Virus record (IMG/VR): IMGVR_UViG_3300046004_000413
Location: 1-30,392 of that record
Length of the DNA: 30,392 nucleotides
Source of the DNA: a virus
Reading direction: 5' to 3' (one strand)
Position 1 is the first letter of the stretch. Each line of letters starts with the position of its first letter. Below are positions 9,567-12,956 of the stretch, one piece after another. A model generated the notes under the pieces. The model had not been told where the DNA came from and made no database searches. It worked only from the letters and a program-made list of their open reading frames with translations. Position numbers and translations under genes: made by a program.

Positions 9567-11336
9567 TTATGCAAATCGCTCGTTTAAGTTAACACCGCCG
9601 GATTTTATTGCTGCTACTATCATTGCGCCTACTTGTAACATTGTGTTTGCTAATTCTTTATCGCTTCCGGTATTTGTAGTAGCTGATTTGTCAAATAAGT
9701 TTGTCCCAGCAATTACAGTATCTTTATTATTTAATTGTATTGCCCCTTCTGGTCCCATTAATGTGCGAGTACCGTAACCACTTGGCGGCGATAATATATC
9801 TTCACCTGTCGTCACCGGGAGTCCAGCTGGTTGAACCTTATTCATATCACCGGATCGTGTACCTGTGATCCCACTGAGAACCTTGACACCTAGTTCTTTT
9901 GCGCTAAGTACTTGATTTAAGCCCTGTGCAACATTTGCCAGGTTACCTATAGTTTGAGCGCTAGGGAGCGTGTCCATGGTCTTATCACTAAATCCGGTTT
10001 TTCTAATAGATTTTAGATTTGCTTCGCGGGCACCTTTAACAGTAGCTTCCATATCAGGAACTAATTTTTTTACCAATACATCAGTAAGAATTTGTATTTC
10101 AGTAAGAATTTTTTGGTCAATAGTTCTAGTATCTAAGCCGCCGATTAATTTTTCCATGTCATCATCAGTTGCTCCTAATGATTTTGCTGCTTTTAATAAT
10201 GCGTCACCAGTTTCATCAAATAATGCTTCTCCGCCAGGTAGTTTTTCTAAGATGGATTTTTTTTGCAATGCTCGTGCTAATGCAGCTTCATCCATTCCTA
10301 ATAACTCTGACATTTGTTTTCTGGCAAATAAATTGTTTTCTAGAGTTTTACCTTCTTGTTCTAGAATAGTATTTAAGACATTAGCTTGTTTACTGGCATC
10401 TCCTTGCAATGTTGCTTCTCGATATGCATTAGTTAAACTCTTACCTCGTAAATCGGACCGAGCTTTATCGTTTCCAACTAAACGTCGACCGCTTAATAAT
10501 TGATATTCTAATTCTTGACCGATACTAGATTCGATATTTAATAAATTATCTGCTGTCTTTTTAAGATCACCCATTTTAAATCCTAGTTTGCTAGCTTTTA
10601 CGATTGCTAGTTCTAGATTTCCCGGCATTTTTCCATATTGTAATTGTACATCCTCTGATGTTTCAGCAATTCCTTCTGAAATCATTTTAAACGACCCCAT
10701 CATTCCCGTAGAATCTTCAATTGCTTTAGATAAATTATATTGAGATATTAATGATTCTTGGGCATCTTTTCCGCGTTGCATTGCAAACCCGGTATATTTT
10801 TCTGCTTGCTCTTCAGATAGTCCCAGATTTGTGGTCATTACTTGTTGTATTCGAATCAGACCTTTATATTCTTCAGATCCAGCTGCTGTCATTTGATCTA
10901 GGGTTGGCAACATTTTTTTAATATTGCTAGCATATCCATTAATTTGGGCGCTAGATAATTTAAGATTTGTAGCAATATCCATTAATTTGCTGCCTAATTT
11001 CGCAGCTGTAATACTATTAATCCCAAATGATTTATTAAGTTCTTTATTTCTAGTTTCTAAGACGTATGTTTGTTGTTGAGCAGCTACTATGGTATCAGTA
11101 AGACCTTTTAATCCATTTAAATATACATCAGTGCCTTTAGCGATTTCTGACTGTTGTGTAAATAATTCTGCGTAGGCGTCTTTCAATGAGATAACTGCAG
11201 CTGCCCCTATGGTAAATTGCGCCGCGCTTAGCGCTAGATCTGCAACTGCACCAACAGCTGCAGTTATTGGCGGTTTCTTAGCGCCATGTCTAGTTTGTTG
11301 TTTAAGCCGAGCTATTAATTGAGTATGAATATCCAT
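9567..11336 (-). CDS. 29: Tail tape measure protein, gp29-like (589 aa)
   Basis: A long, mostly helical protein with Ala-rich hydrophobic segments near the N-terminus (VADLALSAAQFTIGAAAVIS, residues 30-49) and extended coiled-coil-like stretches, as expected for a tape measure. The C-terminus has the pattern MGPEGAIQLNNKDTVIAGTN (about residues 528-547), which I recall from tape measure proteins of marine T4-like phages. At 589 aa it is almost the size of T4 gp29 (590 aa), predicting a tail of about T4 length. It lies immediately after the chaperone pair, the canonical order. The ribosome-binding site before the ATG at 11336 is weak. Confidence 0.85.
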   Translation of the reverse strand: MDIHTQLIARLKQQTRHGAKKPPITAAVGAVADLALSAAQFTIGAAAVISLKDAYAELFTQQSEIAKGTDVYLNGLKGLTDTIVAAQQQTYVLETRNKELNKSFGINSITAAKLGSKLMDIATNLKLSSAQINGYASNIKKMLPTLDQMTAAGSEEYKGLIRIQQVMTTNLGLSEEQAEKYTGFAMQRGKDAQESLISQYNLSKAIEDSTGMMGSFKMISEGIAETSEDVQLQYGKMPGNLELAIVKASKLGFKMGDLKKTADNLLNIESSIGQELEYQLLSGRRLVGNDKARSDLRGKSLTNAYREATLQGDASKQANVLNTILEQEGKTLENNLFARKQMSELLGMDEAALARALQKKSILEKLPGGEALFDETGDALLKAAKSLGATDDDMEKLIGGLDTRTIDQKILTEIQILTDVLVKKLVPDMEATVKGAREANLKSIRKTGFSDKTMDTLPSAQTIGNLANVAQGLNQVLSAKELGVKVLSGITGTRSGDMNKVQPAGLPVTTGEDILSPPSGYGTRTLMGPEGAIQLNNKDTVIAGTNLFDKSATTNTGSDKELANTMLQVGAMIVAAIKSGGVNLNERFA

Positions 11337-11363: not shown

Positions 11364-11654
11364 TTATCTACGTGATTTTGCTCTAGCAGCCGCGGCTAGT
11401 TGTTGGGTCCTAATCTCTTCAGCCGCGGCTTCTTTTTCACCGATAATTTTATTAACTTTTTTAATCCAAAAATCACGAAGAAAAATGGGCATATTGTATA
11501 TAGTTTCCCAGTCCCATCTTCCATCGCCCCACCATATTAAATTGAAAATAGAATCGTGTAATTGTACTCGGTCTGCTGGTTTAAAACCAAAAAAGGTCTG
11601 CGCCAAAACGAAAGCCAGAAGAGAAAGTGCTCCCATCTTCACCTTCGAACTCAA
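11364..11654 (-). CDS. Downstream frame of tail-assembly chaperone (likely frameshift product)
   Basis: This 96-codon frame overlaps the end of the 252-aa chaperone gene by 74 bases in the +1 (equivalently -2) frame. The part beyond the upstream stop is 72 residues: DSIFNLIWWGDGRWDWETIY followed by NMPIFLRDFWIKKV and an Ala/Arg/Glu-rich helical tail. The D-W-E-x-x-Y-x-M-P-x-x-L-R segment looks like the T part of G/GT chaperone pairs. The nominal start is a TTG at 11654, and an ATG at 11636 has AAGGTG before it, so independent translation cannot be excluded. More likely it is made as a 324-aa fusion with the upstream frame. It lies directly before the tape measure, where such frameshifts occur in most long-tailed phages. 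T4 gp51 is an alternative comparison by position. Confidence 0.68.
   Translation of the reverse strand: MSSKVKMGALSLLAFVLAQTFFGFKPADRVQLHDSIFNLIWWGDGRWDWETIYNMPIFLRDFWIKKVNKIIGEKEAAAEEIRTQQLAAAARAKSRR
11581..11594 (-). other. Candidate programmed +1 frameshift site
   Basis: On the coding strand the last codons of the upstream frame are CTT TTT TGG TTT TAA, and the next base is A. A P-site TTT can slip +1 onto TTT while the stop TAA waits in the A site, continuing as AAA CCA in the downstream frame. The geometry resembles the RF2 CTT-TGA site. A second site lies 6 bases upstream: a run of six T allows +1 or -2 re-pairing at TTT before TGG. Both give the same downstream protein. No measured slippage; inferred from sequence and gene position. 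Confidence 0.6.
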
Positions 11655-12339
11655 ATGTTAGATCTAAACCTGGCATATTGGTAAACATGTAGTTTCTAAA
11701 TTTCTTGGCATCGATTGACATAAAGTCATATCGGATAAAGTCTTCAATTGATACAGATTTTCGATCACCGTTAACTTCTCGTATTGCTAATTTTAATGTG
11801 TCACTAATTTTATCAGAATCAGATTCATTTTTAACCCATGTAAATTTAATATGTGTAGTTTCGTTAACTTCGTAATCAAATTCACCATTTCTATCAGATA
11901 CGAGATCGAATGGTTTATTTTTTAGTTTGTCTAATGCAACAACGCGAGTTAATACGGTATTAGTTTTTGGATCTGTTACGGTTACTGGATATTCTGCCCC
12001 ATATGCTAATATTCGAGCATGCACAATTAATCCATCTTTATCGACTGGAGATATATCCGAAACATTGATTTCTGTAATAATAATTGATTCAAGTAGTTTA
12101 TCGAATACAACTCCTTCTCTGATATATGATGCGTTGGTTAATATATCTTCATCATATGCTGTCATATATCGCATTTCCAATTTACCAGAACTTAATGGAT
12201 GTGTTTCTGGATATAATTTGCCTTGGCTTGCTAAATTTACTATAACAGTAGGTAATTTACTTCGTTGTTTGTTTTCAAAATTTTGGCGTGCTAAATTGAT
12301 AATGTTCTGATTATCTACGCGGTCTGTTAACTTCGACAT
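11581..12339 (-). CDS. Tail-assembly chaperone / T4 gp26-type protein (252 aa)
   Basis: The opening LPTVIVNLASQGKLYPETHP (residues 29-48) and KLEMRYMTAYDEDIL (53-67) match the family that includes T4 gp26 (T4 baseplate protein family), in which a strand with G-x-L-Y-P is followed by a mixed domain. Here the gene lies between tube and tape measure and is followed by an overlapping second frame, so I read it as the G-like chaperone that coats the tape measure before tube assembly. A T4 gp26-like hub-assembly role is the alternative. AAGGA lies 8 bases before the ATG. It follows a terminator and a leader AT element, so it probably starts a new transcription unit. Confidence 0.75.
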   Translation of the reverse strand: MSKLTDRVDNQNIINLARQNFENKQRSKLPTVIVNLASQGKLYPETHPLSSGKLEMRYMTAYDEDILTNASYIREGVVFDKLLESIIITEINVSDISPVDKDGLIVHARILAYGAEYPVTVTDPKTNTVLTRVVALDKLKNKPFDLVSDRNGEFDYEVNETTHIKFTWVKNESDSDKISDTLKLAIREVNGDRKSVSIEDFIRYDFMSIDAKKFRNYMFTNMPGLDLTFEFEGEDGSTFSSGFRFGADLFWF

Positions 12340-12434: not shown

Positions 12435-12956
12435 TTAGAAATTTAACAATGCCCAGTCATATCTTAATGTCATTTCAATTGTTACAACATCTTCTGTTGA
12501 CCAATCTAATGAACCAAAATTAGAATCCATAATATAAGTTCCGTTTAAGATCCATTCTTCAACAATTTCGCCTAATGGAGATAATTGTCGTAAATATACT
12601 TGTTTTTTATAAAATGAAGAATATCCATCACGACCTGTTGCTGATTCATGGTGCAATCTTACCCATTCCATTACTGATTGAGCTCCAGATGGTACAATTG
12701 CATCATACAATGTAACTGCGATAGAATTCCATACAGATTTACCCTTAACATAGCGTTGAGTATTAATGTGGTCTAATGCAATTTCACCATTTGCCATTGA
12801 CGGCTTAGCTGACGCTTTAATTAAATAAGCAGGTATATCACCTAAAGACATAATAAATTGATGTTGTTTTTTTGGTTCCCAACTAGTAGAAACTCCAAAC
12901 ATATCATTATCACTTATGTATCCTAGGTTCGGGTTTATTTGATCTTCTAATGCCAT
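12435..12956 (-). CDS. 19: Tail tube protein, gp19-like (173 aa)
   Basis: The 173-aa product is close to T4 gp19 (163 aa). It has the family layout: HQFIMSLGDIPAYLIKASAK (residues 32-51), then VKGKSVWNSIAVTLYDAIVP (70-89), a central MEWVRLHH, and the closing FGSLDWSTEDVVTIEMTLRY (147-166). This subunit stacks as hexamers to form the inner tube through which DNA passes. It follows the sheath gene, the universal order in contractile tails. AAGGA lies 8 bases before the ATG at 12956; an out-of-frame ATG five bases upstream is a decoy. It is flanked by terminators on both sides, so it is probably a monocistronic unit, which suits a high-copy protein. Confidence 0.93.
   Translation of the reverse strand: MALEDQINPNLGYISDNDMFGVSTSWEPKKQHQFIMSLGDIPAYLIKASAKPSMANGEIALDHINTQRYVKGKSVWNSIAVTLYDAIVPSGAQSVMEWVRLHHESATGRDGYSSFYKKQVYLRQLSPLGEIVEEWILNGTYIMDSNFGSLDWSTEDVVTIEMTLRYDWALLNF

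Follow-up and report, generated by a model that had tools for sequence, protein, structure and literature searches.

Likely +1 frameshifting at a conserved YTT TGG site in a gp26/gp51-family tail assembly chaperone gene of T4-like phages

The stretch of viral DNA analysed here, hereafter the window, comprises positions 1 to 30,392 of IMG/VR record IMGVR_UViG_3300046004_000413 (30,392 nt). Its minus strand carries, in this order, a tail tube protein gene (gp19-like; 12435..12956; phrog_4542 tail tube, E 1.6e-20), a pair of overlapping frames (12339-11364) and a gene for a 589-aa protein (9567..11336). The preliminary description had delimited the pair correctly at 11364-12339 while omitting its strand. 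The zero frame (11581..12339, minus strand) starts at an ATG at 12339 preceded by an SD-like AAGGA, encodes 252 aa and ends in GAC CTT TTT TGG TTT TAA, with its TAA stop (11581..11583) two codons past TGG. On the same strand, the open +1 frame runs from 11654 to its stop codon (11366-11364) and contributes a C-terminal domain (TAC-C; 11364..11588) of 74 codons (GFKPADR...) plus stop, which is rich in tryptophan (FFGFKPADRVQLHDSIFNLIWWGDGRWDWETIYNMP). The two frames meet at the putative shift site CTT TTT TGG (CTTTTTTGG; 11587..11595), and a gap of 27 bases separates the end of the +1 domain from the next gene. The family search returned no match for the 589-aa product of that gene, which by position is probably the tape measure protein; a tape measure is annotated at the equivalent place in the phages immuto and SP-15. 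The start of this probable tape measure gene (11336, minus strand) is devoid of an SD-like sequence, unlike most genes in the window, where SD starts are used by 14 of 23 genes against a background of 11%. Elsewhere in the window, 21572-17763 (minus strand) encodes a tail fibre-like protein of 1,269 aa with repeated YSHAEG-type motifs.

The zero-frame protein, here termed TAC-N (the short chaperone), matches the Pfam family T4_baseplate (PF12322, the gp26/gp51 family) with 36.1 bits at a curated cut-off of 24.5, as well as phrog_150 ('baseplate hub'). Together with the order of tube gene, frame pair and probable tape measure gene, the PF12322 match supports the earlier assignment of the region as a tail assembly chaperone locus. 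Structures of the N- and C-domains were modelled separately, from homologous loci. The N-domain model (pLDDT 87.9) resembles predicted gp26/gp51-like proteins, and its best solved match, a weak one, is the HK97 tail assembly chaperone 2ob9 (Z 5.7, rmsd 8.5 over 91 residues). The C-domain model is helical (pLDDT 87.5), with invariant FFG, R, G, Y, P and R residues, and VIA-align 2 retrieved no informative solved match for it. A few members gave weak matches to phrog_634 in this domain. Direct homology of the C-domain to the tail of T4 gp51 was considered and rejected, as no profile match was obtained.

Scans of IMG/VR yielded a first set of 101 non-identical loci with both parts, the window among them, which further scans enlarged to 248 loci, including three public phage records and one metagenome bin. 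The search required both parts to be recognisable, and loci that have lost the second domain would thus be under-represented; locus counts carry no correction for phylogeny. The second domain occupies the +1 frame in 101/101 loci of the first set and 248/248 of the enlarged set, never in the −1 frame or in frame, and the slippery site is conserved in 242/248. In the first 70 close loci, entropy upstream of the site peaks at zero-frame position 3, whereas past the stop it amounts to 1.13, 0.78 and 0.34 bits at +1-frame positions 3, 1 and 2, respectively. Because the variable codon position flips there, the coding frame switches at the site. The same loci invariably carry T as the first base of the zero-frame stop (70/70), though a TTC codon there would leave the +1-frame protein unchanged; since this stop-enabling T is invariant, the short form is apparently selected too. 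A single family match, by either PF12322 or the profile of the window family, was found in each of six cultured phages of the +1 type, LR756508, Atu_ph07 and five long environmental contigs (13 in total). Judged from these comparisons, selection acts on both frames and, at the nucleotide level, on the site itself; the frame relation is fixed, and the gene is present in one copy rather than two. The constant frame relation and the flip in codon phase bear out the programmed shift into the +1 frame that had been predicted from the window, and also support its description as a shift of an uncommon direction.

Conservation at the junction centres on YTT TGG, which occurs in 242 of the 248 loci. 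The most frequent motifs are TTT TTT TGG (159 loci), CTT TTT TGG (69) and TTT CTT TGG (9), followed by ATT TTT TGG (3), CTT CTT TGG (1) and GTT TTT TGG (1); the six exceptions read TTT CTT TAC (3), TTT TTT TTC, TTT ATT TAC and AAC TTT CTA. Codon choice at the site departs from that found elsewhere. Its Leu codon is CTT in 61/61 close loci, as compared with 146/1414 (~10%) elsewhere, and its Phe codon is TTT in 69/69 loci of the close set and 99/99 of the first full set, as compared with about 80% elsewhere. Within the close group, both TTT and TTC occur in 9 of 12 conserved Phe columns, those at −24 and +3 being the only others without variation; among the conserved Asp, Tyr, Asn, Glu and Lys columns, every one varies in its codon. 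The Phe codon at −24 from TGG (11613-11610, minus strand) is TTT in 70/70 close loci and is followed by C in 68/70. The T-run of the site, which the preliminary description had listed as a second site, is thus nearly invariant. Its favoured site was the TTT-TAA-A context, where a release-factor-dependent slip would allow perfect UUU to UUU re-pairing in the window. That context is not conserved (TTT TGA, TTT TAG, ATT TAA and GTT TAA also occur): the stop is TAA in 117, TGA in 83 and TAG in 48 of the 248 loci, lies anywhere from 2 to 11 codons past TGG (3 to 11 in the distant group), and in the distant group is preceded by codons other than TTT, so that slippage at the stop is highly improbable. 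The alignment of homologous loci proposed earlier as a check therefore upheld both frames and the T-run but not TTT/TAA. The homopolymer of 6 to 7 T could also invite transcriptional slippage, or reflect a sequencing or assembly error. The +1 relation nevertheless recurs across all 248 distinct loci as well as in genomes of cultured phages, and is retained where a C interrupts the run (TTT CTT TGG and CTT CTT TGG), which disfavours polymerase slippage; we give this explanation hardly any credence.

From these comparisons, we consider it very probable that one gene produces a tail assembly chaperone pair by a +1 shift at CTT TTT TGG. Most ribosomes would remain in the zero frame and synthesize the 252-aa gp26-like TAC-N, while a fraction would shift at this site, with the slowly decoded Trp codon UGG in the A site. 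The tRNA in the P site, paired with UUU (in variant loci with CUU, in an RF2-like manner), would re-pair on the overlapping UUU, leaving GGN as the next codon, and continued reading in the +1 frame would yield a 324-aa TAC-NC fusion. The variants CTT TGG and CTT TAC are explained by this scheme, because RF2-type re-pairing from CUU to UUU is possible there; ideal +1 re-pairing is absent in the locus with TTT ATT TAC and in Listeria phage LIS04 (TTT TTT AGT). The predicted +1 junction peptide in the window is FGADLFGFKPADR, which places Gly at residue 251 (LFGFK), while a slip at the stop predicts Trp there (LFWFK; peptide LFWFKPADR). The fusion length of 324 aa in the preliminary description hence stands, with Gly instead of Trp at residue 251. 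By analogy, the fusion may be made in low ratio to the 252-aa form. Its W-rich helical domain would probably bridge the tape measure and the tail tube subunits, as in lambda gpGT. The slow decoding of UGG, the exact P-site codon, the efficiency of the shift and the chaperone function of the products are what we infer here, as is a shift of +1 over −2.

A −2 shift on this U-run, of the kind known from phage Mu, would lead to the identical frame. The P-site UUU would move back two bases, giving a 325-aa fusion with an extra Phe (predicted junction peptide FGADLFFGFKPADR). Most of the sites permit this movement as well, and the third base of the first codon, which the −2 re-pairing needs, is invariantly T in both groups. 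The required pairing fails, however, in Streptococcus phage SagM-GXN1 (GAA TTC TTT CGT) and in LR756508 (AAC TTT CTA), which still show the +1 relation and where +1 re-pairing from UUU to UUC is possible. In addition, few −2 cases are known (PMC5009743), and an upstream duplex adjoining the E site promotes +1 shifting while weakening −1 shifting (PMC6321510). We thus favour, on the pairing potential of the sites, a +1 shift with YTT in the P site and TGG in the A site, and regard the −2 shift as unlikely.

The C-domain might instead be made as a separate protein through internal initiation in the +1 frame, without any frameshift, e.g., at an ATG within the loop of an upstream hairpin (AGGUGA-N2-AUG; ATG at 11636-11634, minus strand). 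Most close loci do carry AGGTGA and a nearby ATG, and the annotation of T4 gene 26 includes an internal form, 26'. Yet the T of the loop ATG is missing in 16/70 of the first close loci, the SD-like bases lie in the stem, and the nucleotide conservation centres on YTT TGG, which is dispensable for starting translation. Moreover, 14/101 loci of the first set have no ATG, GTG or TTG in the +1 frame between the upstream stop and the site, and in four loci the +1 frame upstream of the site is just three codons long. Candidate +1-frame starts in the remaining first-set loci vary from locus to locus, although rarer codons could conceivably serve as starts. A strong start of its own for the second frame, which the preliminary description had named as evidence against a fusion, is therefore not conserved, and internal initiation appears very unlikely.

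The +1 layout extends to cultured phages: Microcystis phage Mel-JY01 (AAC TTT TTT TGG), Flavobacterium phage immuto (AGC TTT CTT TGG), Rhodothermus phage RM378 (TCC TTT TTT TGG), Bacillus phage SP-15 (GAA TTT TTT CAC), Listeria phage LIS04 (GAG TTT TTT AGT) and Streptococcus phage SagM-GXN1 (TTC TTT CGT). Annotations of these genomes either omit the second frame or list it as a hypothetical protein, small or separate. A −1 relation was seen by eye, in single genomes and with weak profile support for the C-domain, in the jumbo relatives Atu_ph07 (CAT TTT TTC GCA), RAS14 and LR756511. From these three sequences, the gp26/gp51 family appears to have undergone a change in shift direction.

We found no classical downstream stimulator in the close group, where the mean folding z is about 0 at +6..+66, and no SD at the RF2 spacing upstream of the shift site. 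In the distant group, downstream folding z is weakly negative (e.g., at +30..+90). In one cluster of loci (L112, L126, L332, L333 and others), RNAalifold pairs the slip site with upstream purines, which may be due to chance. A conserved hairpin does occur upstream, at −57..−34 from TGG. In the window it reads GAAGGTG(AAGATGGGAG)CACTTTC (11623..11646, minus strand) and exposes an SD-like GGGAG in its loop; each of the 113 close loci has GAAGGTG(10-nt loop)CACCTTC or a variant of it, a few with broken outer pairs. Among 3,000 seven-pair stems in −200..+100 it ranks best, with 98% of cells paired in the 113 close loci. Compensatory changes on both sides affect 4 of the 7 stem pairs, a value reached in 0 of 500 shuffles, and the stem uses codons that are rare elsewhere (Thr ACC in 90/93 and Phe TTC in 97/113 close loci). 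A purine tract closes the 3′ end of the loop, with GGAG in 107/113 close loci.

The pattern sought in the distant group was shaped after the close group had been seen, and the corresponding numbers are partly post hoc. There, GGAGG lies within −75..−9 in 67/129 loci; in 62 of these 67 the tract sits in the loop of a stem of four or more pairs, the 62 loci accounting for 41 distinct hairpins. Counting unique contexts and ignoring kinship, 85% of the GGAGG tracts in −60..−20 are closed by at least five pairs, compared with 22% of those at other positions of these loci; the excess is smaller under a broader loop definition. The SD-like tract, the nearest conserved one, is located 27 to 40 nt upstream of the P site, outside the range of known SD stimulators, which act at 8 to 11 nt for −1 shifts and next to the E site for +1 shifts (PMC6321510). 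A role of the hairpin in the shift is plausible because, in E. coli extracts, +1 frameshifting is stimulated and −1 frameshifting attenuated when a stable hairpin lies upstream, adjacent to the E site (PMC6321510). The conserved hairpin described here probably modulates the frameshift. More tentatively, and as a possibility a little short of likely, the hairpin may represent a new kind of stimulator that tunes the ratio of short to long chaperone via the 16S rRNA tail, a trailing ribosome or a protein. The spacing fits the collision and SD-pausing models unequally well in the close and distant groups, and a CsrA-type function is a further candidate for the GGA loop. No general signal is known for +1 shifts (PMC10885494), and the portions of the literature covered by our search contained no description of such a hairpin.

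In its layout, the locus resembles a chaperone pair of the lambda G/GT type, here in phages related to T4. As with lambda G/GT, it is placed between the tail tube gene and the (here probable) tape measure gene and would specify a short form and a frameshifted long form with a small second domain; lambda, however, shifts −1 (PMC5009743), whereas the predicted shift here is +1 at YTT TGG. RF2 (prfB; CUU UGA) likewise combines CUU or UUU in the P site, a following U and +1 re-pairing, but has a stop codon in the A site and an SD about 3 nt upstream, in place of which this locus has a sense UGG and a hairpin 27 to 40 nt upstream. The +1 frame is likewise reached in the chaperone genes of phage Mu, by a −2 shift, and of haloarchaeal HSTV-2, by what is very likely a +1 shift (PMC5009743). 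In Vandenendeviridae, the chaperone gene has a poly-T site (GTTTTT) and a usually mis-annotated downstream frame, but shifts −1 (PMC12846349). A 2016 review describes the G-T frameshift as widely conserved among phages with long tails, T4 being the exception (PMC5009743).

T4 has two PF12322 genes, gp26 and gp51, which are separate and on opposite strands, in contrast to the one gene found here. Both products belong to the same family as the zero-frame protein, and the extra C-terminal stretch of gp51 sits where the +1 domain does. T4 thus seems to make the equivalent two forms from paralogues. A 2022 study by Vladimirov, Gautam and Davidson (Virology 566:9-15) is said to concern the same chaperone gene family, and its title reportedly points to a non-frameshift mechanism for T4-like phages, so that the earlier remark that no shift is known for gp26 calls for caution. 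A passage in PMC12846349 cites this work in connection with poly-T signals for −1 shifts in the TAC-N genes of T4-like phages. Since the 2022 study covers T4-like chaperones, the novelty of the frameshift itself is uncertain.

Collectively, these comparisons suggest that the gp26/gp51 family is encoded as one frameshifted gene in many T4-like phages, with a +1 shift here and apparently a −1 shift in some jumbo relatives, and that the two-gene state of T4 is an alternative to it. Such a one-gene arrangement helps to explain the small 'hypothetical' frames that directly precede tape measure genes. The hairpin with its SD-like loop offers a clear candidate, amenable to testing, for a novel class of +1-shift stimulator.
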